Below are positions 1 through 35,591 of a DNA stretch of 38,975 nt, one piece after another. The position numbers and the translations under genes were made by a program. Numbering within the stretch: position 1 is the stretch's first letter; each line of letters opens with the position of its first letter. Below the pieces are notes generated by a model. That model worked only from the letters and a program-made list of their open reading frames with translations. It did no database searches and was not told the origin of the DNA. This DNA is from an uncultured Clostridia bacterium (GTDB taxonomy: Bacteria; Bacillota; Clostridia; Christensenellales; CAG-1252): the NCBI GenBank assembly GCA_945482995.1, contig CALYRM010000011.1, forward strand, positions 1-38,975. Direction: 5' to 3'.

Positions 1-56
1 TATTTATTATATATTATTTATATAAGTTATTCAAGATACTTTAAACTAAATTTCTC
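1..56. other. Non-coding 3' flank of the giant gene
   Basis: This AT-rich stretch follows the giant gene's TAA stop. I see no stem with a T-run, so its terminator probably lies beyond the window edge. Confidence 0.4.
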
Positions 57-3000
57 TTAAAAACTCAATTTAATGTAGTCGTTGCTGCCACTACTCAACG
101 TTTGACTTATCTTGCCTACCGTTATGGTAATAAGCAAGTTATAAGAAGCTTCATAGTTGCCCGGTTTTAACTTACTTGCGATTGTCGGTTCAACGCTCCT
201 ATCAAAAGTCAATCTTCCTACATTCTTGTTGGTCATATTGTAAATATCCACGGTAACCAAACCAAAGATTGTTGTATTGAAGCTTCCGTCTGTTTCATTT
301 CCGCTAAGCGTTATTATGTCGGACAATTCTAAGCTGCTGTTTGGCGTGAGCTTAACCTTTAATACGGCGATATAAAGTCTTAATACCAATACTCCATCCT
401 CTTCAACGCACATTTCCTCGCTAAGTTTCGAGGTTGCCTTGAATGGGGTGTCAACGCCGTTTCTGTCAACATAGTACCACATATAGGTTGCGTATTCGTT
501 TGCTTCTAAACTCAACTCGTACTTAGGTAATTCAATATATCTACCGATACCCGAATACTTCGTTGCGCCAAGCTCGTTACCGTCAACGTCGTGGAATACG
601 TACTTAACTTGTTTTACAATGCTAAGCTCACCCTCAACAGTGCCGGTGTAACTATCTGATTGAACGCTAACTCTATACTTATGTTCGCCAACCTCAACAG
701 GGAATCTATTTGACGTCCAAACATTGTCTAAGAAGTATTCAACCTTGACGGACGCAATTCTTCCGCTTACATAGGCGGTAATCTCTTTATCGAAGCCGTC
801 ATAGATTTGATTTACATTGGATACGATTATTCTATCCGAAATATCCTTCTTGACAACTTCGTACTTGCAAGCCAAAGTCTTGACGTAATCGATTGTGCTG
901 TTCTTGTATGCGATTGTTATCTCTACCCAATAGCTACCGACTTCGGTAGGAATATCTGTTGTAGAAACGATATTCTCTTTGTCTCGGCTATCATAGAAGA
1001 TTTGTGATAGAACCTCGAAGTCGCCGTCTTTTAGAGTGTAGAGTTTAACGTTTGTATCGCCGTATACGCTTTCGATGTATGCTTCGCCTTGCTCGTCCAC
1101 CGCATTGGTGTTAAGAACTATCTTAGACGCTAAATCGTCGGTATCGACAACGGTGTAGCTCACTATTACATCTGAACCGTTAAGTTTTAAAATACTACCG
1201 TCAGAGCCTATAACAACAGCCTTGAATGTGATTGTCGAGCCAATATCGGTTGCGGTGATGTGGAATTCGTTTGCATTGTCGGAAGATATATCGATTACTA
1301 CGTTGCCAACCGTCTTGCTTACAGGCAACCAGCATACCGACAAGGTCTTTTGATATACGTTCTTACCGTAAATTACGCTTACCTCTAATTCGGGTAAATC
1401 GTTTGCGGTGATAACCTTACCTACTTCAATTTGACGTTCAGCGCCACCGATTACTCTGTTGATTGATGTAATATAGGAACTATATACATTCAAAACAACT
1501 TCCCTTGTCCAAACAATGCCAATACCGTCAACCTTTGCTTGTAACTCATAGCTATCTTCAATAGCAAAGCTTGGTACCTTCGTCCAAGTAACGTCGAATA
1601 CAGGCGTATCGATTACTACAGGATTAGCGCTCGATAAATCGTAAACGGTTTGTTTTATTTCGGTTGGAAGTGGCGATTTGCTACCTCTTCTTATGCTGTA
1701 GTAGCTTGCAAAACTGTCGTACATTACAACTCTATTAGGTGTGATTTCGACATCAATTGCTACCTCTACACCATAGACGGAAGCTATTAACGTGTATGTA
1801 TTGTAGATTCTCTCGCCTTTTGCGTTCAACCTATACATATCCTCAATCGTCCAATCGGTCAAGGTATGCTTACCGTCTTGGTCAACCCAAGTCAAAACGC
1901 TCCAATTAGCGATTACGTTGACTGTGCTACCGTCCTTGAAGGTCAACCAAAGATCTTTCGGTAGATAGAAGTATTCACCAAAGCCTGCTACAATATTTTC
2001 CAACGGCATTAATTCAACCTTGTCGCCAATTCTATTGGCTACATATTGAACTCCGTCCAATTCGGTTAAATCTTTATTCGTGACTACTACCTGTACGGGT
2101 ACAGCTTGATAGCCGCCTAAATCGTTGCCGATATAAACGAACGCATAATACAAGCCGCCGTCTAAGCTTAAATCGATATTGCGTAAATCCCAACCACCGT
2201 TTGCGGTTAAGCCGTTAGCTGCCACAATCAAGCTATTGAAGGTAAAGCCGTTTAGACCGTCATTTTCAATTCTTAAAGTGAAGGAATCATCTTGCATATA
2301 TTCCTTAGCGTTCTTGATTCTGAATACTCTCGTTGTGCCGTCGCTAAACGTTGCTATTACATTTCCCTCAGGCAAGCTCACTGTTGGATTGAATTGGTCT
2401 ATAGTCAAGCCCGACAAGCCCTCTATTGAAGTTATGAGCTTTTGTTTTACGTTCAAGGTATAACGATATTCTTGATATCCGCCGATATCGTTACCTATCA
2501 TTGCGACCAAATCAAAGGATCCGCCAGAATAGTCAACGTCGTTATTTGTGAAGCTTGAGCCATTATGTAGGTATTTTACATTATAAACAAAGCCCTTATA
2601 CTCTATCGTTTCGGGTAGTGAATCTTCAAACGGATCGATTAAAGGCTTGAAGCTATCTTTAATGTCTTGTGTAGCAATGGTCATATCTTTAACCTTTACC
2701 GTTCTATATTCGTTTCCGTTCATTAAGTATACTTGTTGATATCCGCCGATATCGTTGCCGATATAGAGAACTATTCTTGCGTTATCGTTACCCTTGTAGT
2801 CTACCTCGTTACCATATTGGTCAACAAAGCTGTAATCCTTAATTCTAAATCCGTATTCATAGCCTACAACCTTTCCGTTTGCCAAGGTAACCTCGAGTCT
2901 ATCGCCACCTATTTCGAGTTTTTCCATCGGGTTGAATTCGCCCGATGCGAAATACTTATCGAAAATATCATAGGTATTGATAATGTCGCCGCTTTGTCTA

Positions 3001-6000
3001 ATATACAAAACGCTCTTGATTATCTCGGAGTCAACCTTGACTGTAAGCTTAAATTCGTTGCCCGCGCTATCCGTGGTTACGTAGCCTGCAACTTCGTTAC
3101 CCAAAGCTATCTTTAGAGTTACGAGTTTATCTAAGCCGTTATAGTCGTAGTTGAAGCTATCAACTAGCTTAGCGGTAAGCTTGACAGCCTTATCCTTGCC
3201 TGTGTTTGTTTGATAATCTAAGTCCTTGGTATCGGGTATATATGCATTGACTTCAAGGAGCTTTCCACCTATGTAGATTAAGCCGTCTACGATAGTCAAA
3301 GGATTGGTATATGCGCTTATCGGTAGGTTAATCACACCATTACGGTCGATTCCGTCAAAGTACATGTTGTCGTAGCCTGTTATTCTATCGTCAACTTTCA
3401 AACGACATTCTACCCATTGATAACCGCTCAAAGAATTACCTGTACGGATATAGGCTTCAATCGTATCCATTCCAAAGTGATATGTTTCTCTTATTCTGAA
3501 AGCGTTTTCAGAATCGACACTCATTCTGATTGGGTGACTGGTGTCGCCGTTATAGTAAACGTTTACAAATGCGGGAACTTGGTTTTGACTATCGAACGGA
3601 TTGAATACGAACGGGGTATCATTGTCGTTCAATGCCTTTACGGAAGTTGCAAGCATCTTATCTACAATGATATTAACCGGCAATTCTTGATAGCCGCCTT
3701 GAACATTACCGATCAATACGAAGGATTGTTGTGAGTTACCGATATAATGATAATTGATATTTGCATAAGACCACAATACGTTCAATATTCCCTTTTCACC
3801 TGAGGTATAAACTACTTCAACAGTGTTAGCAGGAGTATTGGTTGCACCGTCAATTCCGCCGTAAGGTCTTATAACCTTAGTCCAAACGCCGTTTTCGTCA
3901 ACATCGGTAGCAACTCTCTCTATCTTTCTGTTTGCAACCTTTAACAACATTTGTACGTCTTGGTATCCGCCAAGTCTTGAACCAACTCTTGCAGTCAAAA
4001 CATAGTAGCCGCCCTCGTAGAAGTAGTTGTTGTTATTCAAACACTCTTGACGACCATATACTATGCTGTTGATATCGTCAATCATTGCTTGAGTTACCGC
4101 TTGAGCGTTGCTGATATTTGCCAATACGTCCAAAGTACCTGCCAAGCGTTTACCCTCGCCGTCCTCGAACAATACCTCGATACTGCCGGGCAATGCACTG
4201 TAATCGTATGGGTCGATTTCAAATTCGTCTTTTTCTACCGATACAATCTTTCTGCCCTCAATTTCTACAAATGCAGTTACAGAGTGGTAACCGACCGCAT
4301 CGTTACCTACGACAACGTTTTTGATTTCTTGCGTTGTGCCGGCTGTCGAGTAGAGATAGCTTATATCTGCCTTTGACCAATCTGCAATCATAGAGTATCT
4401 AGTTGCTACACACCAGCAATCGCAGTCGTCAGTGCAGTAAACGCCCTCGCACTTTGTACAGTGACAAATGTCTCTTGAAACTATATCTTGACCTATCTTT
4501 GCTCTGCCGATAGTTACAGATAAGCTTTCGGGCATTTCTATATCGTATGGATCGACGTAGATTATCTTAATCGTTTGACGTTTTAGTTCCTCAATCTCTT
4601 CAATTACGTTTTCTAACGCTTCCACGTTGTTTGCGGTAGAAGCTTTCAAGAGATTCAATGCTTTGATTACGTTACTTTCAGCTCCACTTACTCTATTGTC
4701 TATTTTCAAACTCGTGATAAGCTCTAAAATTGCGTCGATATGCGGAGCGAACAAGCTTTCGTAATTCTCGATCGTTATATTGTTTTCATTGAAGTATGCG
4801 ATCGAAGTAAAGTTAATATTTGTGATGTTAGTACAAATCTGATCGATAAATTGATTGTATGCAGCTTGTTGTTCAGGGCTATCTAAATTCACAAAGCTAT
4901 CATAGATTACATCACGATTTACCTTATACACCTTGAACGTAAAGGTTTGATAACCATACTTTTCGTTACCGATTGTGATACTTGCAGTGTCCTCGTTCTT
5001 TGTCCAGCTTACGACCTTAGCCAATACCTCGTCGGTTACTACCTGTGAATGAGCAAACTTGAAGTACAATACGTTAGGATAGCTTACTGAAGAGAATACG
5101 TCGTCAACAATGTATTCAAGCAATTCGTTATGTTCTTCGTCGATGTATGACTTGTAGATGGCGGGAGTAATAATATTATTTCCGTTTACTACAGTTACGT
5201 CTTGACTTACCTTACGGTTCAAAACAATTGCTCTAAATTCAATGTTAATGTAGCCTACCCTTGGAGTACCTACTTCAAGGTCAACGCCGTGTGTTCCATT
5301 GTTCTTTTCGGAATAGAATTCCTTGCCGTTATAGTCAACGTCAATGATATGGTCAAACAGCCAGGTTGCATTTAGATTTCTTGTAGTGCCGTCCTTAGCA
5401 AAATATGCGGTCAAGGTGTTGGTTACCTCGCTCCTTGCGTATAGATACTTAGTTTCGCCTCCCTCTCGATATGTGCTTACCGTTACAAGTGTTGTTGTTT
5501 GTTCCAATGGATCAATCTCGAAGTAACTATTTTCTCTTGAATAGGTTACTCCGTCGATTTCATAGGTAAATCCGAAGGTTACAAGTTTACCATCAACGTC
5601 CTTTGCGATTATATCGTTACCGTTATAAATCTCGCTTATTGTCTTATCCATTACGTTGACCTTGACAGGGAATACTTGATATCCGCCAATATAATTACCT
5701 ATTCTTGCATATATCGAAGCGTTGGAATTATCAACATCACGACCTAAAACGTAAACGTCATAATTCTTGTTTGTCCACTCAACCGCCATTGAACCCTCTT
5801 CGCCATTCTTAAATAGAATTGTAACGGTGCTTGTCAAGTCGTCGGTGCTGAATGGATCTATTGTGATTTCCTCAGGAACAAGCTTATCTATTTCTCTATT
5901 AATAATTCTTACTGTTACATCGTAGTATTGATATCCTACGTTGCTATTGCCAACTTGTGCAATTACCGTATATTCCTTGTACCAACTTATCGAACCGTCT

Positions 6001-24000: not shown

Positions 24001-27000
24001 GGTAGATATTTATCGAATCCAATAAATGACAATACCGATTGCAAAATTTCACCGGTTACTGTGAGTTTGAAATCGTCATCTACCATGTAGATTCCCAAAC
24101 AACCTTTCAATGAATTTAATAGCGCTTTCATTGAACCGTCTTCGCCGTAAATTTCGCCGTCTTCTGCTGCGGTTACCTTGCCACTATCAAATACGCCGCC
24201 TATAACCTCGCCAAGGTCAATATCGATTTGGAATGGCTCGATATCTAAAAACGCAAGGTCAATACCCAAAATACCGCTGTTTGTACCTCTAGTATAATAT
24301 AAACTCAATAGGCTTAAATCCTCGTGTTCCGCTTTAAGCTCGATATAGAAGGTCAAGCCGTAAAGTGTTTCGGAGCCTTCCGCAAGGTTGAAAGCAGCGT
24401 CAACGGACAATACATATCTTCCTTGGAGCATATCCACAATGTCGATTGATAGATTGGAATTAACTAATTCCGATAGTATTGCTTTGAAGTCAAAAGCGTT
24501 CGTATCGTTAGGATCGGTAGTTGCGCCCATGTTAAAGTCTAGCGCTACGTCAAATGAGACGTGTCCGTGAATTGCGTCTGCCGAAATGTATTCGCCTAAT
24601 TGACCGAAGAACTCGGCTTTCATCGATTCGCTGGAAGCGCCTGAATCATAAACAGGTACCTTGGTATCTCTGAATTCCAAAACGATATCGCCTAAGGCAA
24701 CATCTAAGAAGAAGTCGGGATTCATTGCGTTGGCAATATGAATTCCTAAGCCTTTTTCGATATCTGTTTCGATACCTGCTTCTCCATAATTTGTTTCAAG
24801 TGTTAAATCGTTTAACGTACCAATGCCGATCAAAGAAACCATTTCAGGTAACGTCAATTCCAAACCTGCCATTACGCATACTCTTGACAAGATTTGAGAG
24901 CTTAGCGAAACTAAAATTCCGTTTGGCGAAAGCTTGATTGCGTCGAGAAGCTTAATAATATCTATATAATCAATGTTTTCACCGGCTGCGCTTTGCTTGT
25001 TGCCACCGCCGATTTTCTTCAATATGTTCGTCAAGATATCATTCAAACTAAATGCATCTCTCAACGCAAGTTTTAAGTTAAATGCGGGAACATTGACATA
25101 AATAGAATCGGTAATGTTGCTTCTATAATAGATTCCCAATACCGGCTCGCCGTCTTGATATCTTGTCGTATTGTTCTTATCTTTTACTATCAACATTAAC
25201 TCTAAATCAAGACTGTTGATAATATTTGAAACTACGCTTGCTATATCAAAGTTATCGCCAAAGGTCGCCAAACCAATTCCCGATAAATCTAATCCCGATA
25301 TGCTTACTTCTACGTCCAATCCGTAGTAGATTTCGCCTTTTTCGTCCGAAGTCAAGAATACCTTGAGTAGGTCGTTATAGCTTGCTATTTCCTTTGAAGA
25401 TATAATCTTATCTCCGTTTTCTTCGACAACGGTTTCACCCTTACCGGCTTTAACTGTCATCGACATTCCAAAGTACGTTTGCTCAACGTCGTTCAACAAA
25501 GTCGACGTATTCTTTAACTCGGTGATTTGTGTGGTTAGTTCATCAACATTTTCCAAGGTTTCATTGTCGTTTACAAAGAACGCCTTGTAATCGTTTAGGT
25601 TGACGGATAACACGCTTGCTCCACCCAAAACAAGAGTTAAACTTGTCTTATCTGCGTTAAATGCCAAAGAAGCACCCTCAATCAAACCGTCAATTTCCGA
25701 GAAAATACCCGTTGCACCGATGAAGTCTAGCAATAGACTTATAACGCCTCCGTTTAAGTTTACGCCGATTCCGTCAATAACTTCGGTTTGAATTATAGCA
25801 TCGATAGGCTCGCTTGCTTCCGAAGTCTTGGGCTCTAACATTCCATTTATCAAATTGGAAATTAGATCGATAATACCTAAGTCGTCAACTCTGATTGCAT
25901 TGTTTTGTTGATTGCCTATTTGTAGATATGCTGCTTCAATGGGTTCGTTTTCTACAGAATATCTATCAATAGAGTTATAATACAAAGAAAGCAATCTTTC
26001 GTCAGATATATAATTTATTTCACCGTCATTTGTTGCGTATAGGCTTAACCATAATTCTAAACCTAAGTCATCCAAGCCGTTGAGTTTGACGTTCAAACCT
26101 AACTCCAAGCCCAAGTCAACAGTAACCTTACCTGTTTCGGAATTTACAATAAGTTCAAAGCTTGTTCCCGGGATATTGTTGGCAATTAACTCATTTACAT
26201 TGTTTGCGTAATCGCTATCTAATAAAAGATTAATTTCTGCCTTTGTATATACGCCTGCGTTTATTTCTTTCCAATCTACGCAGTTAGCTTCATTTGCTAC
26301 AAAGCTATCCGGACGGGCAAATTCAACTGCCAAGCCGTTTAATCCAAGATTTGCGGAGAATACTTTTTCGCTGTCGAATATGTCAATTCCTACTCCTACG
26401 TTCAATCCGCTTTCGTTATTCATTCCCAAAGAAACGTTTGCAGATATATCGGGAAGTACAATGTTATCTAATATGTTAATCGACAACAAAGAGGTCAATA
26501 CACCAACAATGTTTGTCGTGGTAATTGCTTTAATCATTCCTTCGCCGCCGTTAATTTCAATTCTATCCAAGCAATCGTTTACAATGCCGAATATGTCGGT
26601 TGTTTCGCCAGCTGGCTGAACCTCTGCCTTTGCACCGGTGATAGACGATAATGCATTAATTATTGTGTCGGCAAAGTTATTCTTGATAGTGTCGTAAATA
26701 AACGGAGCCTCAACATAAAAGTCCTTTAATTCAATAGTCGGCAACGATACGTAAATTCTGTCGGTATTGCTGTCGTAGAATAAATCGAGAATTAAACCCT
26801 TAGCATCTTCAATGGAAACAGCCAAAGCTAATTCCGAAAGGTCATAAAGGTTTGCAAATACTTCTAAATTCAAAACGAATTTAGCGTCTATATCATAATC
26901 GAAATAAATAGAGATTTGAGATAATAGCGTCTTAATTGCGCCCTCTACGCCAAGGTTTTCAAGCAATTGCAATACGGTTGGCGCTAGGTTTACACCCTTG

Positions 27001-30000
27001 CCGGAAGAATCAACCTTGTCTATGCTACCACTCATATCAAAGCCTACGGATATTCCGAAGTAAACTTCTTTGATTGCCAATGCGCCGTTTTCGTCTGAAA
27101 TAGCAATGTAATCGCTTTCGCCAAGTTCGTCTGTAAATACAAGTTCTTCCATATTTGTCGGAGATACCTTTGCAAGCAAGCCGTTGATTGCAACGGATAA
27201 TTCTACCCCTGCCAATCCAACGTCAATATAAACGCCGCCTTCGGTTGATAATCCTAAACCGATTGCATCAAGATATTCGGCAAGGTTGATTGAAGACAAA
27301 TCCAAGCCAAATTGTTGAAGAACGGATAAAATTAATCCGCCGGTCAACGTAACGGCAATGCCGTCTTGATTAAATTTGAGCGCAACAAGCTTATCGTGAA
27401 CAGTTTCGCTTGCCATAGCCACGTTTTGCTCATTTGATTGGAATAAACCGGATAATATTTCGTGTAAATCTAAGCCTTGATATTTGATTGCACCGATTCC
27501 GAACAGAGGAGCACGAGCGTATACAGTGTCATTCTTGCCGTTATAGAAAAGCATTATTACTTGCTCGCCTCTTGCCGAGTTTTCGTCAAGAGAATAAACA
27601 GCCAATAAAACTTGTAAATCTCTTAAAATCTCGGTAGCACTCGATAAATCGCTGAAATTTAAGTTCGATAGGTCTGCGTTTGCGAACAAGTCAAAGCCTA
27701 ATCTTATATTCATATCGCCGTTTGTAACAGCCATACCTAAACCCAACTCGGGAACTAGCTCGTGAATGAGGTTTTCAACCGTCGAACCTTCTTGACCTTG
27801 ATCAAACTCTTTGATGTTGAGATTTAGAGATCCCGTAATTGCAAGTGACATTTCACCTAAGTTAGAAAGATTTAGTTCATTGTAGTTTATAACTTCATCG
27901 GGAATTAAATCGGGATTGCGTTCAAATGCCAATGAAAGATTTTGCAGTCCCAAAGATATATAACTCAAACCCTCGGTGTTATTATTGGAATTCAAATCGT
28001 CTTTGAGGAACAACGTCAAGCCTAAGCCGATTCCGTCGTTTAATTGAACGTTGAGAGAAGGAATAAGTCCGTCAAGCGCAGTACCATTATAAAAATCTTC
28101 AATTCCCAATAACGTGACGCCAACAACGTTCAAAATACGCTTCAAAGTGTTGGAAGCAAGAGTGATTGCTACTCCCTTTGTGCTAACGCTTACTTCGGAT
28201 AAAATCCCTAGATTGGATAAAATAATCTCGCTTACATTGATTGCATTACTTTCACCAGCTGCCGAAACCATTGTACAGCAAGTACATTCACAATTGTCCG
28301 TGCAATCTGCGGATTCGCCTACAATACATGAACCTCTTTGAATACAATCGTCACATTTACAACCACAAGCTAAAGAACCGATTTTTAACTTAAAGTTTTC
28401 GATATCAAAACCTTTGATTTCGGTGCCTTCAACCTTGCCTAATTGAGCGCTGACATAAAGGTAAATTCCGTCAAAGTAAACCGACAACAAGGTTTCATCT
28501 TGCCTTATCAATTCTATTTTGGCCTCCATTCCATTGACAATTTTGCCAATATCCAAGCCGTTTTCCAAAGAAATGTTTGCTGCAAATCTAACAAGTATAT
28601 CACCTTGAACGTTCTTTCCGCCTAAACCCTTGATGTCTATATTAATAAACAAGTCGTTTAGAAGGGTTGCAAATTCACCCAATTCAAAATGCTCGGCAAT
28701 AGTCAATAGGTCGGAAATATCATAGCTATTGCTCTTTAAGTCATAACGAACATATACCTCTGCCGATAATGAGATTTGATCGATTGCACTCAATTCCTTA
28801 TACTCGGCAAAAGCAATTTCGGGAAGTGGTCTTGGCGATAATTCAAGGAATATATCCCGTATCTTCAAGCTTAACTTTAAATTCTCCTCGTGAGTATTAC
28901 CTGTTGCTAAGCCCAACTCTAACCCGATTTCCAAGCCGTTTTGTGTTGAAATACTGATATTACTGTTTGAATCAACCTTAATTATATCGCTTATCTCTTC
29001 GCCCATAAGCACGGTTGCAAGAGCATCAAAAACATCGGTTGCAACGTATACTGCAAGTCCGTCATTTATAGCGACTTTTCCGACAACGCTTCCTACTAAG
29101 TTCAAAACTTGGTCGATAGATAGTTTAGATTCCGTTGGAGTTTCGCTATTCTCAGGAGTTGAAGGAGCGGGAGTTGGCTCATCAGCAATCATCGTTTGAG
29201 GCTTGCTCAACATATTCTCAAGAATGCCATTCACCATACTCTCAAGGTCAAGATCGTATTTAATCTTTGGTACCGTCATTCCCTCGATACCGATATTTTC
29301 TAAATTAATGAATAACGCGGATTTCTCTTCAGAATACTTGGTGTAATAAACAGAAAGCAATTCTTTTCCGTCGCTCTTAGAGGTTATTTCAAGTGCAAGT
29401 TGAATATCTCTAATTCTTAAATCAAAGCCGTTACCCTTGATAATGTCGCTCAACGTAAAGTTTTCAAAACCGATATTCGCTAACACATCCACAGTTACAC
29501 CCGCTTGAATGCGATCTTCGAATTTCAAAACTGCGGCAAGCTCGGTCAAATAATCACGCAACGAACCAATAGCGTCATTTAACTCGATGTTTACGCCACC
29601 GTTAGAATAGTCTTGGTCGCCTGTATCGAAGTCAATATCGACAGACATTCCAAGTGAAACATTAGATAGCTCGTCAAGATTGTTTAAATCGTTCTCTAAT
29701 TCTATTTCCACAAATTCTGGTTCAAAGCCCAAGCCTACAAACGGTAGAGATAGAGATACGGTTGTATCTTCCGCCAATTTCAAGGTCAAATCAGCGTTCA
29801 AACCGAATTTCTCGTGAGCGGCAACAAGCCCTAAATTAATGCTTAAGGAACGGAAAACAAGAGAATTATCAGAATATGACTTATTCTTCATTGAATCGGC
29901 AATGGATTTAATCAATTCGCCGTTGCTGCCCATCAAGCCGCTTACGGTCTCTAGGATATTGATAAACGTTGTACGATTAATATTCAAGTTTATGGTCATA

Positions 30001-31664
30001 TTTTCGCCGTCAAGGTTCAAGGCACGAAGTACCTCAATCAATAACGGAATAATATTATTTTTAACCATACCCAAAATGTCGGTTTCGCCGGCAGGAGCAA
30101 GATTAAAGGTGTTGTTACCAATAAAATAATTTCTTATAGCCTCCTCTTTGTTTTCGCCACCGTAAAGGTCAATCAATACATTTTCGATTTCCTCGGCTGT
30201 TGCCGTATCAGTCAAAGAGGTTGTCAAAATCTCTCCGATAAACGGTACGATAAAATCGTTGAGGTTAAATTTATATTTAAAACTCGGCAATCCTAATGGC
30301 GATAAGTCAAGGATAAGTTCTTCTTCCTTTCCGTTATATGCAAGACGCATAATATCACCGTCGGCAGCGTTATCAGTGCCGACTAAAAGTAAAACCTTAT
30401 TGTTCTCATTGCGGGTTAAGTCAAGAACGGTTTGCAGTCTTAAACCCAAGGCAATTTCGCCAACGCCCAATTCCACAACCGTGTTATTTAGGTTGCCTAT
30501 ATCGTTGACTTTCAAAATGCTCGAAATCAAGCTTCCTGCAAAGTCGCCTACGGTAAAGCTCTTCAAAGAGCCGTTACTAAGTTTCAATGATGCGCCAATG
30601 TCAAGATTTAATACTGAAAACTCAACGTATTCCGAAAAATCAGGTAAATCAAAATTAATACCTTTTGGATCGGTACCGATGTATTCAGCACCTAAGCCGA
30701 TGCCTAATGCGAGTACGTCTTCACCATAGGATAAGTCAACGTCTACTCCGTCAAAAACACCGTTCTTGGTTTTGATATCAAAGCCAAAGCCGATAGTTTT
30801 GAACGGATATGCACAAATATCATTGAAGGTCATTCCAAAAAGTTCAACAAGGACAGAATCAAGATCGCCAACAACGCCTGTAACGATATTCCATAAGCCC
30901 TTAACTTTATTCAACAAACCCGAAAGGAATGTGTTTATGTCGAAAGATACAGAGAACGTCTTGTATTCGACAGAAGTACCACCGTTATCGGTAACCTCGG
31001 TAACAATCTTAGCTTCGCTAATCAAATCTTCCAAAAGTTCTAAAATGATAGCGCCAACGTCTATTGACATACCAATGTCAATCTTTAAGTCGGTTAGTTT
31101 ATCGCCTAAGCCACCAATAGAGCCTGCAGCGTCCTTGATTGAATTCACAGCATCCATCAATTGAGCTAAGCTCAACTCGGTTATGTAAAAGTTGGAGCCT
31201 TGTTCGCCACCTACGTCAAAATAGAATACCGAATTATCATAATATGCGCCGAAAATAAGCGATAAATCGGTTTTTCTAAGTTCAAAGGAACACGTTGAAT
31301 TTGCGTTCCTTATTTCGGGAGTTTCACCCTTAATAAAGTAACGAAGCTTGAGCTCTAAGAAATAATCGAGAGAAACACCATCTTTCGTCAATTTTAGTTC
31401 GTTGGATTTAAAATGTATAACCACATAATCTTCATCTTCTTCAACTCCCGCTTCTTGCATAAAAGTAACCGCTTGACCAAGAACCTGGAAGAAGTTAGAT
31501 GTGTCTAATATCTGCACGTTGCTGTCTGTATTAGGTCTATCGGTATCGTCCGGGGGAACAATAACGCTTCCTAAATCTTTACAAGCAGTAAGCGTTAAGC
31601 ATGCGACAATACACAAAACGATTGCCGTAAGCAGAATAATAAAAGTAATGCGTTGTTTTTTCAT
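57..31664 (-). CDS. Giant modular surface lipoprotein, 10,535 aa
   Basis: I do not recognise this as a named family. It is one open frame of 10,536 codons with no internal stop or frameshift. The start is ATG at 31664, preceded by GGAGGT with a 6-nt spacer. Residues 1-28 form a lipoprotein signal peptide (MKKQR, hydrophobic core, LTAC lipobox). Residues about 50-7700 are about 19 diverged modules with the pattern hydrophobic strands, LLSLYY, YVDLP, an amphipathic LxxLL segment, then an AAGE-type linker. An EF-hand loop lies at 7714-7725. About 18 Big_4-like Ig repeats with GN..GGYQ follow, then MBG-like domains. Six Cys clusters interrupt the chain. No LPXTG, SLH or C-terminal membrane segment is visible, so the protein should be exported and held by its N-terminal lipid. 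A structural or adhesive filament, or a lipid-conducting bridge, is inference. The ORF and export signal are certain; the function is unknown. Confidence 0.95.
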   Translation of the reverse strand: MKKQRITFIILLTAIVLCIVACLTLTACKDLGSVIVPPDDTDRPNTDSNVQILDTSNFFQVLGQAVTFMQEAGVEEDEDYVVIHFKSNELKLTKDGVSLDYFLELKLRYFIKGETPEIRNANSTCSFELRKTDLSLIFGAYYDNSVFYFDVGGEQGSNFYITELSLAQLMDAVNSIKDAAGSIGGLGDKLTDLKIDIGMSIDVGAIILELLEDLISEAKIVTEVTDNGGTSVEYKTFSVSFDINTFLSGLLNKVKGLWNIVTGVVGDLDSVLVELFGMTFNDICAYPFKTIGFGFDIKTKNGVFDGVDVDLSYGEDVLALGIGLGAEYIGTDPKGINFDLPDFSEYVEFSVLNLDIGASLKLSNGSLKSFTVGDFAGSLISSILKVNDIGNLNNTVVELGVGEIALGLRLQTVLDLTRNENNKVLLLVGTDNAADGDIMRLAYNGKEEELILDLSPLGLPSFKYKFNLNDFIVPFIGEILTTSLTDTATAEEIENVLIDLYGGENKEEAIRNYFIGNNTFNLAPAGETDILGMVKNNIIPLLIEVLRALNLDGENMTINLNINRTTFINILETVSGLMGSNGELIKSIADSMKNKSYSDNSLVFRSLSINLGLVAAHEKFGLNADLTLKLAEDTTVSLSLPFVGLGFEPEFVEIELENDLNNLDELSNVSLGMSVDIDFDTGDQDYSNGGVNIELNDAIGSLRDYLTELAAVLKFEDRIQAGVTVDVLANIGFENFTLSDIIKGNGFDLRIRDIQLALEITSKSDGKELLSVYYTKYSEEKSALFINLENIGIEGMTVPKIKYDLDLESMVNGILENMLSKPQTMIADEPTPAPSTPENSETPTESKLSIDQVLNLVGSVVGKVAINDGLAVYVATDVFDALATVLMGEEISDIIKVDSNSNISISTQNGLEIGLELGLATGNTHEENLKLSLKIRDIFLELSPRPLPEIAFAEYKELSAIDQISLSAEVYVRYDLKSNSYDISDLLTIAEHFELGEFATLLNDLFINIDIKGLGGKNVQGDILVRFAANISLENGLDIGKIVNGMEAKIELIRQDETLLSVYFDGIYLYVSAQLGKVEGTEIKGFDIENFKLKIGSLACGCKCDDCIQRGSCIVGESADCTDNCECTCCTMVSAAGESNAINVSEIILSNLGILSEVSVSTKGVAITLASNTLKRILNVVGVTLLGIEDFYNGTALDGLIPSLNVQLNDGIGLGLTLFLKDDLNSNNNTEGLSYISLGLQNLSLAFERNPDLIPDEVINYNELNLSNLGEMSLAITGSLNLNIKEFDQGQEGSTVENLIHELVPELGLGMAVTNGDMNIRLGFDLFANADLSNLNFSDLSSATEILRDLQVLLAVYSLDENSARGEQVIMLFYNGKNDTVYARAPLFGIGAIKYQGLDLHEILSGLFQSNEQNVAMASETVHDKLVALKFNQDGIAVTLTGGLILSVLQQFGLDLSSINLAEYLDAIGLGLSTEGGVYIDVGLAGVELSVAINGLLAKVSPTNMEELVFTDELGESDYIAISDENGALAIKEVYFGISVGFDMSGSIDKVDSSGKGVNLAPTVLQLLENLGVEGAIKTLLSQISIYFDYDIDAKFVLNLEVFANLYDLSELALAVSIEDAKGLILDLFYDSNTDRIYVSLPTIELKDFYVEAPFIYDTIKNNFADTIINALSSITGAKAEVQPAGETTDIFGIVNDCLDRIEINGGEGMIKAITTTNIVGVLTSLLSINILDNIVLPDISANVSLGMNNESGLNVGVGIDIFDSEKVFSANLGLNGLAVEFARPDSFVANEANCVDWKEINAGVYTKAEINLLLDSDYANNVNELIANNIPGTSFELIVNSETGKVTVDLGLELGLNVKLNGLDDLGLELWLSLYATNDGEINYISDERLLSLYYNSIDRYSVENEPIEAAYLQIGNQQNNAIRVDDLGIIDLISNLINGMLEPKTSEASEPIDAIIQTEVIDGIGVNLNGGVISLLLDFIGATGIFSEIDGLIEGASLAFNADKTSLTLVLGGASVLSVNLNDYKAFFVNDNETLENVDELTTQITELKNTSTLLNDVEQTYFGMSMTVKAGKGETVVEENGDKIISSKEIASYNDLLKVFLTSDEKGEIYYGLDVEVSISGLDLSGIGLATFGDNFDIASVVSNIINSLDLELMLIVKDKNNTTRYQDGEPVLGIYYRSNITDSIYVNVPAFNLKLALRDAFSLNDILTNILKKIGGGNKQSAAGENIDYIDIIKLLDAIKLSPNGILVSLSSQILSRVCVMAGLELTLPEMVSLIGIGTLNDLTLETNYGEAGIETDIEKGLGIHIANAMNPDFFLDVALGDIVLEFRDTKVPVYDSGASSESMKAEFFGQLGEYISADAIHGHVSFDVALDFNMGATTDPNDTNAFDFKAILSELVNSNLSIDIVDMLQGRYVLSVDAAFNLAEGSETLYGLTFYIELKAEHEDLSLLSLYYTRGTNSGILGIDLAFLDIEPFQIDIDLGEVIGGVFDSGKVTAAEDGEIYGEDGSMKALLNSLKGCLGIYMVDDDFKLTVTGEILQSVLSFIGFDKYLPSLVRGFTLKNNEYTRNLPDGDYTSVVAGIRYGTGFVKESGETSYFYSLALANKAIEKVVLDGIDLTGADIEKYFVIADGKLTLAKNTAQFNALSRETHEFSVVYTDGTAQSNKFEIVNTEFKFNKQLSHDKYVLNIGYKSIDRISIYKNSALIEELTTTQNINRYFIIDRFENTIEFNFASSGANALAVGTYQVEVVYSDGTTSSFAMAKQVVKTIISDVDLSGLEIITLTLSGASDMVLTQNSNSENWYGNYFAVNSVGGDLTLGYVDGRIGLQLRVNDNSEISLSIGNLNIDASEYEISSPKTYKENIEFLTFKTAIEFNVQAQEDVFIAITDLIGETLDNLLPLEGLPFDLSEIPVGLWVEDALDAHYLLDLQLNIRFDQYSKIPVDIGGSEIVIQIYKLSDVSNGVVSIDELKFGLSYIGSEGEEGALYVNIPYFDLLLKIDEVPWKSFINSTIQGLLEPAPDVSQAGDAISIESILGLFTGLRITETELTVSFVDDLLTKALQLVGVNIDFAKLNTDRSFINIFNIILSQDTESVIFKKDNENDVEQNKFIEAKLEFLLNDGNKTALQNIIAKLEAAEVSDVSISIKEQALAKLRSFNPDKNTNEEFDVIRSMILNDNFVTVDVNQKTEIVNLMNSFKLKDEYLDLVVYQPLIAFDQDLKFETPLGQYTTITQAKALYLGLSGSIVLASDGSVINVGNLVESTEDDNIFDGILNDIKDATTQIVFNENQQKLDFTLEVNVGMGSDKLAQLIQGGTFKELVLALVDDLYIYFELRRTTNNASTVLAEMFYQNSYIYLDLSNMGFPQMAMKLDVEELLNLVFGSNEVAAAGESELDYEKAFQILIHSNELALKGSVAFIGLMLDKFGYALKDANVEVDLGLTLDKNTDKLISLDLIATDNSSNNTVLSAQINRPVVKLGGFISKYVSDATKYAFVENIEYLYAGVSIELGYHVNEAKDSTEFTPADYVLTDVFSNVLGLSDIPLVVESSSTNKLILDFNINLNIKDLSNTELFLHLYATDKDMLTLYYDGTGYLYLSAPILDDELNIRVEFNIKSIFDKLGLTELIESLDLKELIYDLLNRTPKDEVSEAGEEGGYTTAQLLTMLVSKLQVGDGALSVIFNKNILNAIGLEILNTEALVRELKEISVSLDLFKRKISANISFNSKVSGQEDPYLNLVIRDYNFRGTKQEIPFDGSRYSTTDDYDHVYLNTSGSLDYNFPDGEYDFGGVLSSLVKNANIPFTLDDMQGTFYFNLDVKLGIVDYMSSEIVLEVYYKDNVYDIGSLALSLYLDIERGELYVDLPWFEIPRVLITGVDLSSVVQSIFGGVSAASDEPQWYSIARFISSIVDKVVIADGNHSLPEGLNIVFNGNIIEIALDYFLKELQIKLPFSVVDSDIAESFIGLSITNKQLIIDFELENDMAISEETRYGYLRARVGIDGVKLGDMSIRPDRTQDVTAYTTLLDLSAPEKLVLETIYFEASINMDVDMLQSHINLEKVLQYLLNDQLSLNIVDNIDMLIGIDVKANINLKNIAFSELLLTINVQEKIGEDSHGNSQYNQALFARAYFVGMDNALYLDAPMIGLYDIKISVNLDDLLSGVGGKDEPKPDDEPDTETPAEGDDKLDCGCIQAQCLANGSCFDINGIKLCQDDCSCSCCVLPCGCTDEYCLKYAHETGDYENACGLNGLYCHDTENCKCNCHQALDCRCMNPECIEAGTCISGWKYVYQNVRAEDGTFVKVDGVIQQELVRMPICRCDSEKGGCINSKNPCECHKSVLSCGCINPEHVSDYTCPVDSTTCMFIECTTHSTKEECYAHSKDCVFEIVEDKHTCDGSSRDHWASLITGMIDTFVVSKTHIQLITTTHILSNLFELLAHEKLNYEDAPAGGLTLSINYLSRDIRTEAQKVALIKLLNSVEVVSDNVEELTAIKKAIQEFDVENGKSTVIDELVKRFARLSATEASKEAYDIALENLKAFRDKGNLYDESFFEKLDASLSLWFYGGWSVETGEFLGEKSTISLEVGNFTLDTGKHYIPFYAIDETTRQEISELKDVNEYQLFSEMTKISFNVAIEFDETPGEGLNGETELTTDFTEIVAQLIPGFDSVFKFITKPFGGQMVFTLVIEGSIDLNNINASQVALTLYEGGKYGKERRRMGFIFYDGLAEEGCTLYLDIPAFNIVQIKYVGIDLNSLLYKEKLSCGCENILCNANGSCYNEYGSRICGDDCCECTYFACGCDSENCINNMLCDGSNCKNNCDCTHHNVTEAGEVTTLVCSCNNAECVARGSCVLSCTDCAYVKNPSDDINCHKPVWNKENALKCGCYDPICTARGCCYELCPYCSDGSCIDKYNSSGKSLSDIAYTLQLVLHSLQKVDVSLERGVQVQISPSIVAQLLNSLGFDFELEALEDAAVLKGGLKLSTVEGLGINIEAGTNEPSYSINPSITVSLSNVGMKLNTENIREKLDEDIKNSLPTYGKLTTNDNILISASAEINAESYQGYWSISTLITNLLGETVDLGIDFEDANYNMQMNLMANISLDSIFGNGLDGIDINRILSENEVLFELINVTDPSTPKLLLSLYIKNGWAYIDFGVLADTPSIKINVLELLGEKTVQAAEEEKTEELINFDLSKEYPELASKGRMYFYLEEKNNVPFKVALKGKAINSIIIENLNINGSGDVREKIVLDTPELISSYFDIVSVDGEALTSISLLNNANAVALNESNQGVYYEFIITTDSGSVTIPAKVGTRKQLGFGNPAQIVTTILSVINHFGASQDTITLNIGADVLMIVEELLGLNMALPEISGVTMNIVLVDSVTKITESDYISGLPNNNDKFGVQDVETDLEYEFVNALDGVVKAKFISKEGQIKAVPSEELSKYFTIVGNRVVLDYVSANNFDTGLWKFELYNNAESVLATGYFNVSVFVSPDLTLGVENFELTLRLKNYATILQKNGQVVDESHNLLRYVSSTYWAKDNAYKPTKVIDENYQIVAEEYTDVVNDLNELYLATEIDFSVDIENNNISNLDDKYNSNGSSFNMGDDLADLIGAVLLNLGLSSSEINGDYKLILRVHIDSLDFTTFSYRNVKVYAKLQKKCYNLVVDGVSTGDNGAYVDEFMVYFSGDDIYINANPMIVKFATCSAVSISISDTLDYWQNGGTQEASESTPSAIYDRYALAGEGFSIAGVLSIIKDITIGRGTIGLKVADNLVNVLLKMFTNLDYNVSLGDLGLTLDYINGALTLDLNKSSIFAPTLSYDKDGNSIYENAVDYASIKIDKEAQTIALTESAIRNLPVGIWTVDVSYKDGATKSFTVAINSSRDSISYVLDGSEVTTNELFSAIYVEEIESLRMYISEITLLNQAVQSNSSVFSYQLVGNDAKVSKDVLFSLQKKVLTVNYGGETAQLDLTRDNPSIIYKGKTYRLRYDGDYFYINPEGLSCSGIDGIKITDSNSVISINMNEEGYNKQVFGLSMTIGNLELGFELPDYFDKSGPYDASEEYRYTSNGVMAMTKGLTLEEYKPWSSLEYIVSASLDITLDYDEVTLNPFEYFDHKEGDSLDLSGLAQAIKASILLTTQIDTAITIDFSIKINALETYWSEAKIAIYLNGYKRNVNGVLVDVTEPIVIYFDGAGQNSESALYVDMSILGIDPFYVKVDIVSAIKNFIIGLVSEGEFGSSSNDNRVDVEKDKLACGCTCEDCLKSGKCESYGEKTCKEDCSCTCCKLSCGCTENACLTNGSCYDKNGVRICDGAACGCTCAPLSCGCTNPECIEAGTCLTFDENYNVIVRCSALGDCSCTCCKLACGCTDEACLSNGSCVGKNGVILCAGECACSCKTTTSGDDNNKGNLLDKVMTLLPHIGDIISGVSVGNQGMLLILNRNVLNNVFAMLAVNTVFTDNNVIYIETRGYDDFNNSYLKLHVGVNGQNGNQYITEVNFHDLVLKGYVASDIARDYLYTESELTKKWAGDVEGNNGYQNTIFKGLDVKISNGGEYELLTEANKDFIGEHTSVGIFYKNGALIDELKATDYFATDLRPNNDNAYKNWIDVMNLQVVFETTIYLQMNGGTNDKSVELDLTDMLSKYLYLTKGADNELGDLINVIIDNSGSAEDFYDTRIRVDIGMALDVSESHNTELKLELSKEYKEGNKIKDFLLLGLYYLNQNETVYLSLPVLDIEGLCVKKVDLSGLLSGLVGINWGDELSAAGESGNDFYGIIVDTFGLDLSAVQNAIESFVTKIGDDQGLKGAELAIALGNGRMGLAINMALIKLIINLAGLNDTVGGILNTITDIADFDRLEVFVDTGDKVLEENESILEEITIGVGLYLDKNDDEHMFGESLGTADFDWLGFELMLQGIKARIGDGTTVVGGTHINSIPMTARNSFKNINTFLEFPHTLEGEQYSDGRFVNIDSFGNLDAFVDLMDMEEFHLNLGGEIDLDLAHDASGYTNPLVDMLTKLLENTGIFAEDAIHINKNLTSNIKFGFIIKGDIDFSDWTKTEINIELTYQRGNSDINKLLGIYYWGDNSNDRKESGSNTAGSFYLDLSSLGLFKTKIEGISLTAILKDMLGVDVTNGSLKIGGDILYSVLGTKDVTIFINKLIEQMDESQFATESVQEEVEAAAPEKLSCGCTNPDCLSNGTCRDSFGNLTAVEHNCAETIQNARINVSVGNYIKDSIRGEDIKLSINSNMINKLFKMFGVAFEIPEDTLIDLELKMANGFDSLKLSVTSYDVNENGEKLENDGKPIGSTISFMLNQFKIGYKTEGNLLKDIVYSTVGNKVEELDDFSGINLGGLVGLKNNYPGSIIADTVSNILDALNSDISLTLRSNANYVDASGATVVSGKARSTTFDLTRIGKTADEKKNQFIHGLDFHTELLKEEFGTIGKWVKGIYWYQDQLVLDIDIVLSIFSWNINLYQNAFKIPLDLHSMLNKKTGVNSGVDDKTDISHVINDGSRVITAADLNAGLSKPVVGFTITLGEGKVGALGVPVESGEEYSNIRIDLNPLLVGGLLSSLPQTIVGALSGALKVDGVDPSNVKNTDMIYEIYDMLLNFLYSKIPFDVSTTIKNVAEAAIKDIANNIIFDLLSRFLPLPTITESSECFLLLEMTDAELNGEMSAIRKIMISIQTPATGEYWEVQIDMKGLKLAGIDTSNNQNITINVDDSGVLEPVLGNLNKREVTDVFDLDYDKNGVVDYMEHLPTTAKINKFAAGTVPGGTENVALDNLNVSWADSIFQIDPSKGDTSYFIEGHVLNYVQYVEVYVPQSAARKVKYDQGLKVNIDGTDYPAPIITGSNFDYPVVLEAYEVKNFIENLPSVIYVTMTDGNGENEFIKKFDGTEGTGSGVVEWDASELSESYLGGIYKLYLTFGDGIVGNYQVVIPVTVNKNTLNGIIFPDANGGYENGTGTLVFNPYEEIKLPSQVYATFGNSLPQLYNIKWDITEAEILPVYTGYTYRVNARIGNIDIGYYEYKNITITIKSYVMTDWKLLGEDGNYYDLDLTFDPYHFTGDATVVDALNIDMYPRYLYVKYEGENDYVEQRVEWNLSTVNNNYKGGITQAQFRITSDDSKELERIQLAGYQTTDVAITIMDATVSTYVIEGLSDVIDPMHMLYVKRNADGEIVDYIDYLGTSTIISNGGTIYNTAIESDLLKLLDFKPELVVYDIENGKIVDPTDAYDTNCYPSSVTIIYKNGKTATFEAEYTLLGYYEDAGGVVWNTTDIKLDYRGGTYYAHLKVGNSFGGYQTIEVPIEIASRKIASINLRAVRESYVFNPYLYTDYALDKTLYPENGFNLYELLTADASELGNVIFESQASGYYPIIWDLTEISQSYTGGEYNAKAKIGSDEVGYQTVNFKVIIQPKIVKNLLIDSFVFDPYDTSRNPLDKSSYPTSLTVRFTDDTNFEFNNVTWDLTSIGDIWSVRGGTTNVIAKIGNALGGYQLIEVPVTVENRDITEFQLNAGNSIWFDPYGISANASSLDPRLNESYPTTVPVIFGGFNPGTEDDIAGTVNVTWDVNSVINDYNGYASKTVNPDGSISWYKEYTVIAQVGNSNVGYQYYDVTVRIINREIDKLVPEEITIDPFSTDDLTSTVTILFKNGEEGSMAVEWTNKNYDVYVLGRDVDNSNASIYARIGNYIGGYQVFPVKVNVMDKTISEIYNGNDIIAKDVDGKLVTFGFTYEIDGVTYSRENSYFEIDPLEQTTTLVTVSTYREGGETKYLYARSEVTNTLTAYFAKDGTTRNLNATWLFDHIIDVDYNGKEFYSEKNNGTHGVDLEVGTPRVGYINIEFRAIVLNRKVSQDVTVVNGNNIITPAIYKSYIDEEHNELLEYIVDDVFSSVSYPNVLYFKFAHSQVVTDEVLAKVVSWTKNEDTASITIGNEKYGYQTFTFKVYKVNRDVIYDSFVNLDSPEQQAAYNQFIDQICTNITNINFTSIAYFNENNITIENYESLFAPHIDAILELITSLKIDNRVSGAESNVIKALNLLKASTANNVEALENVIEEIEELKRQTIKIIYVDPYDIEMPESLSVTIGRAKIGQDIVSRDICHCTKCEGVYCTDDCDCWCVATRYSMIADWSKADISYLYSTAGTTQEIKNVVVGNDAVGYHSVTAFVEIEGRKIVSVEKDEFEIDPYDYSALPGSIEVLFEDGEGKRLAGTLDVLANISNAQAVTQAMIDDINSIVYGRQECLNNNNYFYEGGYYVLTARVGSRLGGYQDVQMLLKVANRKIERVATDVDENGVWTKVIRPYGGIDGATNTPANTVEVVYTSGEKGILNVLWSYANINYHYIGNSQQSFVLIGNVQGGYQELPVNIIVDKMLATSVKALNDNDTPFVFNPFDSQNQVPAFVNVYYNGDTSHPIRMSVDSENAFRIRETYHFGMDTIEAYIRTGNSLSGYQWVECRLKVDDRITGYDNMYFDGIDRNGVINLPISAYTNPLTIVDGLIYIGGKLLEVNAYIPDTKDLDYQTNTGKDKAVKLTAKLVDSFNYDYNGLDKLVTLKIALGNEVAGYVTTDSAGNEFKLTVKVDSEIIKSVLYIRQSGDIINTYDIFDKYFASGEFNPMEKLEIGGDRLEVTLANGKVVGYEYGFRIKDYSFVDQYGNEVDYKGNDNARIVLYIGNDIGGYQQVYLMNGNEYRTVKVKDMTIATQDIKDSFKPLIDPFEDSLPETIEYKGFVYNVKYLHNGSSFTNNDVDYSGGSFDLVAMIGNDIGGYQEYRYTLNVKQKLITSIEGLSGLTIDQFNPTVSLPEGNVIATFSDGTTRVFRIKNAKEYMQDDSFTLRIENDGLNGFTFNSLIVAANGLTANGGWDLRNIDLSLDGGLYYAFVYIGNDLGGYQAVPVQVVVTNKDLTELDGVQYVANRIGDKVELMPLENIVAGFGEYFYLPKDLWLTFKDGSTVNVIANWSVLTWVDQDGKHTLTDWTIEDMYRLNAKGERIYNTYTLIASVYGVEVAIDVEITPNRVVMYDSFASYYSIRRGSKSPLPTEIKQTVYDLSSANPVVIDTPVFDVTWTKVPSFAIEDSYELQAKVDGIGIVWTREVVLNVYSSYITSINRVIGGAERQIEVGKVITANDLPELEVSVIYGKNVYQKTLSVCWLPVSKTVGNVVIDISSDNANEFHITATDIGSTITFKAVVIGSDGSILKLNGSDVIVSYTVVDTDDLASKIVLNTNAVDEQGEAYIESVYGDTNVKLYTLKDGDFEVLSQIFYDSRDKENIVSTTDIPTEVGSYWVEITIAYKNSTIDYVKTLACKYEVVKKDISDRIIVSNVNQIYDGFDKEITAYVSGRIASVKVEYFLDNVWTSNRFPVEVGEHKYRVSVQSDSYTGTVEGELSIVKQVKYVFHDVDGNELGATKYSGIGRYIELPKYELSLEANEYATYMWYYVDRNGVDTPFKATSKLSEEMCVEEDGVLVLRLYIAVLKVKLTPNSSLELSDIITLSGNETDGSFNTTIFGLVTVDIYNMTNKNVGRLTFDRSVEPTIASKLKPGNYEASYNLLITITVGKISQTLSSGSNDYIKLSF
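640..1135 (-). other. MBG-like beta domains near the C-terminus
   Basis: Around residues 10180-10340 two beta domains show IPTEVGSYWVEI and the pattern QIYDGFDKEIT ... FPVEVGEHKYRV ... YTGTVEGELSIVK. This pattern of YDG, then P-x-(E)xG-xYxV, then Y-x-G is typical of MBG-type repeats in surface adhesins. The assignment is from pattern only. A last unassigned beta-rich stretch of about 190 residues follows and carries no anchor motif. Confidence 0.5.
1450..8170 (-). repeat. ~18 Big_4-like Ig repeats with a GN..GGYQ signature
   Basis: Residues about 7830-10070 repeat a unit of about 85-130 residues: DPY, YPxTVxVxFxxG, a conserved W in VxWDL, YxGGxYxAxAxIGN, then GGYQ and VPVxVxNRxI. The LPxxVxVxFxDG...VxW pattern is that of Big_4 (bacterial Ig-like group 4) domains, which are extracellular beta-sandwiches. 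GY(Q/H/V/I) landmarks fall near 2110, 2480, 2740, 3080, 3418, 3690, 3965, 4290, 4950, 5250, 5680, 5930, 6285, 6545, 6868, 7350, 7685 and 7965. Two further degenerate units without GYQ follow, down to about 1450. Confidence 0.8.
4410..4466 (-). other. Cys cluster F (residues 9067-9085) within the Ig array
   Basis: Seven cysteines occur in 19 residues (CHCTKCEGVYC then CDCWC). This is the only cluster in the C-terminal Ig-like half. It is inserted between strands of one Ig unit, directly before its next conserved tryptophan (IADW). Confidence 0.8.
8490..8525 (-). other. EF-hand-type calcium loop (residues 7714-7725)
   Basis: The twelve residues DYDKNGVVDYME match the canonical EF-hand loop, with Asp/Asn at positions 1, 3 and 5, Gly at 6, a hydrophobic residue at 8, Asp at 9 and Glu at 12. 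It lies just after the last alpha/beta module and before the first Ig-like repeat. A single loop of this kind, as in dockerin-like or thrombospondin-3-like motifs, binds Ca2+ and often stiffens a linker. Calcium binding is inferred from the motif. Confidence 0.75.
10107..10190 (-). other. Cys cluster E (residues 7159-7186), single unit
   Basis: Five cysteines occur, starting KLSCGCTNPDCLSNGTC. This is half of a cluster-D unit, lacking the CxCxCC tail. It follows an EAAAPE linker at the module boundary. It may be a truncated or minimal copy. Confidence 0.8.
12549..12974 (-). other. Cys cluster D (residues 6231-6372), four tandem units
   Basis: Thirty-five cysteines lie in 142 residues, about 25% Cys. 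Four tandem units of about 34-41 residues follow LxCGCTxxxCxxxGxC, a spacer, then CxxxCxCxCC. Units 1, 3 and 4 are close at the DNA level, with near-identical stretches around 12650 and 12880, which indicates fairly recent tandem duplication. It is preceded by an SSSNDN acidic tether and followed by a TTTSGDDNN tether. Confidence 0.88.
16980..17414 (-). other. Cys cluster C (residues 4751-4895)
   Basis: Thirty cysteines lie in 145 residues in about four CGC-starting units. A TEAGE linker string is embedded in the middle, and HH follows CDC. The cluster follows directly on the strand and VGIDLNSLL segment that close a module, so it occupies a linker position. Confidence 0.85.
18510..19124 (-). 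other. Cys cluster B (residues 4181-4385), longest
   Basis: Thirty-four cysteines lie in 205 residues. Several degenerate units of the form CGC-x4-C-x(3-5)-GxC, some ending in CxCxCC, are joined by His- and Asp-containing stretches. An acidic Pro-rich tether (KDEPKPDDEPDTETPAEGDD) precedes it. The cluster sits at the module boundary, like A, D and E. It includes a longer non-Cys loop (about 30 residues after AGTC) and a His-rich end (THST, YAHS, DKHTC). Confidence 0.85.
23310..23860 (-). other. Inserted X2/Ig-like beta repeats (residues ~2603-2785)
   Basis: Within one alpha/beta module there are three short beta repeats, with landmarks VVLDGIDLTG, YFVIADGKLTLAK, VVYTDGT, YFIIDRFENTIEF and VGTYQVEVVYSDGT. 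The order of Y-F-x-I, a strand, then a short helix and G-xYxVxVxYxDGT recalls CBM_X2-type modules. Similar single inserts occur near residues 5200-5290, 5360-5450 and 5790-5850. Family assignment is tentative. Confidence 0.45.
28275..28367 (-). other. Cys cluster A (residues 1100-1130)
   Basis: Ten cysteines occur in 31 residues with CxC, CxxC and CxCxCC spacing, starting LACGC and ending CECTCC. The cluster lies between the end of one alpha/beta module and the SAAGES linker of the next. The spacing recalls metallothionein-like or EGF-like metal- or disulfide-bonded units; neither is proven. Confidence 0.85.
31581..31664 (-). other. Lipoprotein signal peptide of the giant protein
   Basis: Residues 1-28 have a KKQR basic head, a hydrophobic core at 6-24 and lipobox L25-T26-A27-C28 followed by K29. 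A second lipobox-like string, I19-V20-A21-C22, sits six residues upstream. The first residues after C28 (KDLGSVIVPPDD) are a typical flexible, polar lipoprotein tether. In this family Lgt lipidates the cysteine and LspA cleaves before it. C28 is the better site because the hydrophobic core is then of normal length. Confidence 0.9.
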
Positions 31665-31708
31665 AAAATGACCTCCATCCGAACTGTGCTTGACATATCC
31701 GGAAATTA

Positions 31709-31744
31709 TAAATATATTTTATATATACAAGAATGAATAGTCAA
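31709..31744 (-). promoter_or_regulatory. SigA-like promoter of the giant lipoprotein gene
   Basis: On the minus strand there is TTGACT (31739-31744), a 17-nt spacer, then TAAAAT (31716-31721). Transcription would begin near 31709, giving a leader of about 45 nt that ends in the GGAGGT ribosome site (31671-31676). Spacing and boxes fit the vegetative sigma factor. Confidence 0.65.
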
Positions 31745-31842
31745 TATAAGCGCCTTATAATTAAACATAAAAAAATAATAAATAAATTATCTTTATCAAA
31801 AATTAATAAAAAAATAATCTAAATAATTTCATTTAATAAAAA

Positions 31843-31863
31843 GACTTGCAAGTTTTGCAAGTC
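31843..31863 (-). terminator. Perfect 9-bp palindrome with U-tract on the minus strand
   Basis: GACTTGCAA (31843-31851) and TTGCAAGTC (31855-31863) form a perfect stem with a 3-nt loop. Read on the minus strand it is followed at once by TTTTTATT, as in an intrinsic terminator. It could end transcripts coming leftward from the ttcA-like gene through spoIIID, protecting the giant gene's promoter. Being symmetric, it could also be a protein-binding operator. Confidence 0.6.
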
Positions 31864-31902
31864 CATTAAAGTCTTTTATTCGGCAAAAAGCAATTAAAAA
31901 GA

Positions 31903-35529: not shown

Positions 35530-35591
35530 TTTATCCCATCCTTTTATCACTGCCTTGCTTTTTGGAAATGAATATAGAAAAATACTTAATA

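Follow-up and report, generated by a model that had tools for sequence, protein, structure and literature searches.

A giant lipoprotein of the Christensenellales, kept by purifying selection and built on a previously unlisted protein module

Giant bacterial surface proteins have been described in huge-protein surveys and among the giant ORFs of the Omnitrophota. Giant bacterial genes are strain-specific according to earlier work cited in PMC11573180, and most giant ORFs of the Velamenicoccia (Omnitrophota) are poorly conserved (PMC10066038). The protein analysed here, designated giant-1, resembles this group in being very long and exported, in coming from an uncultured host-associated bacterium, and in having few annotated domains, Ig-like ones among them. 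Unlike these proteins, giant-1 is colinear throughout a bacterial family, is nearly constant in length, and has relatives in further families. The second comparable group is the wall adhesins of Gram-positive bacteria with Big/MBG stalks. Giant-1 shares with them Big_4-type Ig-like domains, an MBG_3 domain, and the plan of a modular extracellular stalk, but it has an N-terminal lipid anchor and no LPXTG, and 70% of its length consists of an unlisted module. No paper describing the giant-1 family was found in the literature searched, the coverage of which stops short of most subscription journals.

The window (the whole stretch of 38,975 nucleotides that was analysed) contains the giant-1 gene at positions 57-31664 of the minus strand, and all features of giant-1 given below lie on this strand. 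The gene is one frame of 10,535 aa with an ATG start and without an internal stop; the contig ends 56 bp beyond its stop codon. The N-terminus reads MKKQRITFIILLTAIVLCIVACLTLTAC followed by K, that is, a signal peptide and then the lipobox L-T-A-C28 with a predicted lipidated Cys28 (aa 1-28, 31581-31664). Both LTAC28 and the LxAC-type lipoboxes, present in all orthologues seen, agree with the type II lipoprotein pattern [LVI][ASTVI][GAS]C. Beyond the signal peptide, hydropathy analysis revealed no strong membrane helix, and the C-terminus has neither an LPXTG motif nor a membrane segment, which distinguishes giant-1 from LPXTG wall-anchored adhesins. The N-terminal lipid is therefore the sole visible anchor, as the initial annotation of this DNA had proposed. 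The net charge of the protein is -782.

The GGAGG ribosome-binding site (31672-31676) is located 7 nt before the ATG and is kept in the orthologues. A predicted SigA-type promoter, TTGACT-17-TAAAAT (31716-31744), lies 52-80 bases 5' of the ATG. It should be noted that in this AT-rich stretch the consensus match alone was not above that of shuffled sequences. However, the same kind of promoter together with the ribosome site precedes giant-1 in 10 of 10 orthologues, and this conservation, as judged from sequence comparison, is much stronger evidence for the putative promoter than the consensus match. The good ribosome site and SigA-like promoter named in the initial annotation were thus both upheld. 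The giant-1 promoter is separated from the PP-loop gene upstream of it by an intrinsic-terminator-like hairpin (31842-31864; 1 found versus 0.1 expected).

A search with the first 1,410 residues of giant-1 detected this protein in 20 genomes; save for one weak match, they all belong to the family of the window's genome (f1; genera g1, g2, and g3). Ten giant-1 loci were found by an alignment-based scan of the contigs of the relatives. The named orthologue records comprise Clostridia MAGs obtained from the goat rumen and the roe deer cecum as well as "Christensenella sp." UBA MAGs, and their order in NCBI is Christensenellales. The full or nearly full orthologous frames comprise 10,458, 10,531, 10,277, 10,290, 10,372, and 10,276 aa; a further one of 9,880 aa is broken near the C-terminus and has gaps of N. 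The orthologues are colinear from end to end at identities of 48% (the closest), 40%, and 29%. In spite of this divergence and of many indels, the length of giant-1 (mean 10,391 aa, sd 117, n = 7) varies by only about 1%. The dN/dS ratio was 0.24 and 0.18 in the two closest pairs and 0.11-0.33 in every 750-codon block, indicating that purifying selection is uniform along the whole of giant-1.

These results bear directly on whether the long frame could stem from faulty assembly or from a gene in decay. What speaks for such an error is that all the genomes, to judge by their titles, are metagenome-assembled. Meanwhile, near-full-length colinear single frames were obtained from different samples, and since these independent orthologues come with low dN/dS throughout, both faulty assembly and decay are, in practice, excluded. 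Giant-1 also has no DNA-level tandem repeats, so its collapse or chimeric joining via repeats is unlikely; together with the independent orthologues, this effectively rules out the assembly collapse or chimera that the initial annotation had named as the outcome that would overturn it. Its description of a single intact gene, and its argument that the survival of such a frame without a stop implies selection, are borne out by the near-equal lengths of the orthologues and by dN/dS, both of which go far past what chance would give. The accompanying figure of roughly ten minutes of translation per copy is simple arithmetic and is plausible.

Region A (aa ~30-7460, 9285-31577) makes up 70% of the length of giant-1 and contains ~21 diverged modules of ~235 aa, predicted to be amphipathic beta-meanders. 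The copies are only ~20-25% identical, and the repeats were missed by self-BLAST at default settings; they were seen by chunked BLAST and by profile-profile alignment, which joins most A modules, many pairs at 90-100% probability. Matches to the profile A3 (window positions and i-E in brackets) were located at aa 291-472 (30249-30794, 2.7e-8), 569-816 (29217-29960, 9e-17), 853-1096 (28377-29108, 1e-36), 1147-1409 (27438-28226, 2e-43), 1421-1665 (26670-27404, 1e-33), 1697-1900 (25965-26576, 2e-9), 1964-2215 (25020-25775, 9e-7), 2235-2493 (24186-24962, 6e-47), 2813-3003 (22656-23228, 1e-10), 3179-3381 (21522-22130, 3e-7), 3400-3619 (20808-21467, 4e-36), 3657-3881 (20022-20696, 3e-52), 3900-4157 (19194-19967, 3e-44), 4554-4745 (17430-18005, 3e-15), 4912-5160 (16185-16931, 3e-41), 5532-5690 (partial; 14595-15071, 9e-6), 5988-6201 (13062-13703, 2e-12), 6588-6727 (partial; 11484-11903, 3e-12), and 6946-7099 (10368-10829, 6e-10). 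The module gave no family matches in Pfam, NCBIfam, or the PDB sequences, including by profile; it represents a protein family of considerable size that neither Pfam nor NCBIfam lists.

The module at aa 3657-3881 was modelled with AlphaFold2 from an alignment of 69 rows that covers eight module positions (pLDDT 81.5, pTM 0.73). The model predicts about eleven antiparallel strands arranged as a beta-meander and crossed by short helices. In almost all predicted strands, one face is entirely hydrophobic, over as many as 14 residues, and the strict hydrophobic/polar alternation in region A is 5 times that in shuffled sequences. The Foldseek search with this model returned nothing below E 0.05, and the viral structure library gave no match below E 0.04; porins, Tom40, OspA, and the ORP lipid-transfer domains resembled it at Z 7.3 or less. 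The model of three modules reached a pLDDT of only 52, which is too weak for geometry. The predicted A module is thus an amphipathic beta-meander to which no known fold can be assigned with confidence.

The hydrophobic faces and the alternation would also suit another function for region A, namely that of a carrier or conduit for lipids or hydrophobic ligands, which would move or store lipids across the thick monoderm wall, either with each module as a LolA/LprG-like half-barrel or with the modules joined into one groove. The weak three-module model ranks LolA, RseB, LprG, and ependymins high (Z up to 7.5), and its Foldseek list includes LptDE, apoB, and LolA. However, Z values below 8 are within background, such alternation is also shown by any beta-barrel or sandwich, and the better single-module model puts porins, Tom40, OspA, and ORP before LolA. 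We take these modelled similarities as leads and not as tests passed. Like LolA, LprG, and LppX, the A modules would be exported or lipid-anchored amphipathic beta-meanders with short helices and a weak structural similarity in the models, but they have no sequence match to these or other lipid carriers (Pfam, NCBIfam, PDB profile), stand in ~21 tandem copies, and have no MMPL partner in the genus of the window. With the bridge-like lipid-transfer proteins (VPS13/ATG2; AsmA/TamB in diderms), giant-1 shares its very great length, amphipathic beta modules, and one membrane-tethered end. Here too there is no sequence match, and the monoderm host has no second membrane known to be bridged; the amphipathic A strands might line a continuous hydrophobic groove of the RBG/AsmA/TamB kind, but the multi-module model has a pLDDT of only 52. 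If the A module does bind lipid, the idea of bridge-like transfer would extend to one-membrane cells.

The properties of the cell envelope and the neighbouring genes were considered together with this question. Omp85 was found in none of 16 genomes, while the 7 control genomes were positive, and SpoIVA was present in all 14 genomes tested. By these markers, the hosts are monoderm endospore formers, and the giant-1 lipoprotein would therefore face outward; a lipid carrier would have no outer membrane to serve. MMPL permeases were absent from the six g1 genomes (G000-G005), the window's included, and present in genus g3 and in other families. In G027 (L120:7268-11267), an MMPL/RND permease gene lies directly upstream of, and overlaps, the gene for a 591-aa lipoprotein with an A-like repeat. 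This overlap argues for a carrier, although it comes from a single genome of its family (f9), and a general coupling of giant-1 to MMPL permeases was not supported, given their absence in g1. Taken together, we consider a carrier or conduit the main rival to the reading put first below, though a rather unlikely one.

The window also contains spoIIID (31947-32237), which is the divergent neighbour of giant-1 in 6 of 6 g1 genomes. This position, together with the SpoIVA of all genomes tested, would suit a role of the giants in sporulation, with both proteins belonging to the envelope of the mother cell or the spore. In genus g3, however, spoIIID lies elsewhere while the giants are still together, so its adjacency in g1 reflects synteny and not a conserved link; moreover, the conserved promoter is of the SigA type and not of a mother-cell type. 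A sporulation role is thus very improbable. Two genes upstream of giant-1, the window encodes a MacB-type ABC-FtsX fusion (33058-35550), which is found beside the unit in G004 and not in G003.

The second repeat architecture, region B (aa ~7735-9960, 1785-8462), consists of ~13 or more Ig-like modules with an "IGN..GGYQ" motif. Its match to Big_4 (PF07532) scored 32.5 bits against a cut-off of 22.1 (E 6e-8; best stretch aa 8610-8638). It is followed by an MBG_3 domain (PF18887; aa 10280-10351, 612-827) with E 1.2e-6 and 29 bits against the Pfam cut-off of 25. Ig-like and MBG domains are typical of extracellular stalks. The joining of two repeat architectures, which the initial annotation had described, is therefore real, and there is a third, Cys-rich element besides.

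This element accounts for 121 of the 143 cysteines of giant-1 within ~5% of its residues. Its units, of the form CGC-x4-C-x4-G-x-C...C-x-C-x-C-C, stand between A modules. The insert at aa 1100-1130 (28275-28367) is at the same place in the orthologues. Further inserts were recognised by the clustering of Cys at aa 4181-4385 (18510-19124), 4751-4895 (16980-17414), and 6231-6372 (12549-12974), as were a short unit at aa 7159-7186 (10107-10190) and a short cluster inside region B at aa 9067-9085 (4410-4466). The inserts have matching places in the f1 orthologues and are absent from the giants of the other families examined. The Cys-rich units may form disulfide knots or bind metal.

Giant-1 is immediately followed on its own strand by a second giant gene, designated giant-2, in every f1 locus with enough contig beyond it; in the five loci where the gap between the two genes was measured, it was 48-107 bp. 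The genome of the window encodes giant-2 (6,338 aa) outside the window at G000:C20:7003-26019 (L060/L061), where the gene begins 94 bp from the end of the contig; synteny places it right after giant-1. Two fragmentary f1 MAGs (G009 and G013) contain pieces of giant-1 only and no giant-2. The size of giant-2 is 6,219-6,395 aa (mean 6,334, sd 64, n = 9). The protein opens with a signal peptide and contains numerous GG(L/V)VG repeats of the beta-solenoid (GLUG-like) kind; its C-terminal part has MBG-like repeats followed by one membrane helix and a charged tail. Its signal peptide, GG(L/V)VG repeats, and MBG-like C-terminal part resemble those of the GLUG-type beta-solenoid surface proteins, but it is 6.2-6.4 kaa long, has no Pfam match, has a single C-terminal membrane helix, and adjoins giant-1. 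Giant-2 also lies directly downstream of giant-1 in family f8. Meanwhile, no match to it was found in the giant-1-carrying families f3, f6, and f24, and the pairing is thus not universal. The two genes form a unit of ~51 kb and would be co-transcribed, and their products are probably partners at one cell surface. Since the pair occupies about 2-4% of a small genome and each copy costs minutes of ribosome time, its function must be an important one.

The reading that we put first, at about an even chance, is that giant-1 is a lipid-anchored surface rod, or a tether or spacer, acting with giant-2 in spore-forming monoderms. After export and cleavage, a lipid on Cys28 would fix giant-1 in the outer face of the only membrane of the cell. 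The ~21 homologous A modules, as predicted antiparallel beta-meanders, would form a long stem across the wall, and the Ig-like modules with the MBG domain would be the distal part that meets a partner, a neighbour, or a substrate. Giant-2 (~6.3 kaa, secreted) would be made together with giant-1 and held by its one C-terminal membrane helix. The lipobox as the sole anchor, the Ig-like and MBG domains, the outward orientation expected of a lipoprotein in these monoderms, and the net charge are consistent with the surface location, extended shape, and adhesive or tethering role that giant-1 would have under this reading. So are the near-constant lengths of both giants, their adjacency, the conserved promoter, and purifying selection. 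Against the tether, the ~7,400-residue region A is not built of known adhesin or stalk modules, and its strongly amphipathic long strands would seem to exceed the need of a plain spacer. No enzymatic or ligand-binding site was recognised in giant-1, and the pairing with giant-2 does not extend to f3, f6, and f24. The purpose-built long surface filament or bridge envisaged in the initial annotation is a plausible idea. That annotation was right about the gene, its anchor signal, promoter, and selection; giant-2, the order-wide family, the Cys-rich inserts, and the strand had been omitted from it.

We conclude that giant-1 is real and under selection, and is probably a surface machine; it is built on a previously unlisted protein module. 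Its colinearity and nearly constant length are maintained throughout a family of gut and rumen bacteria, and the second giant is adjacent in two families. A colinear giant with ~1% length variation, a second giant next to it, and an unlisted module make an unusual combination.

The A-module profile matched 48 of 200 genomes of the order (families f1, f3, f6, f8, f9, f14, and f24). Among the matches listed, most A-module frames are single frames of 6,200-12,530 aa. In a sample of 393 genomes drawn from the class, 3 matched the profile, all three of this order, and none from outside it. Beyond f1, related giants occur in four or more families of the order (f3, f6, f8, and f24), and the full giants from f3, f8, and f24 all start with a lipobox. 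A small version of the arrangement was seen in G024 (L121:2343-12262), where genes for a 1,817-aa A-module lipoprotein, a 1,326-aa secreted MBG protein, and a 176-aa lipoprotein stand in a row. Another adjacent pair, encoding a 1,860-aa lipoprotein and a 1,079-aa secreted protein, is present in the f1 genome G004 (C9:94504-103334).
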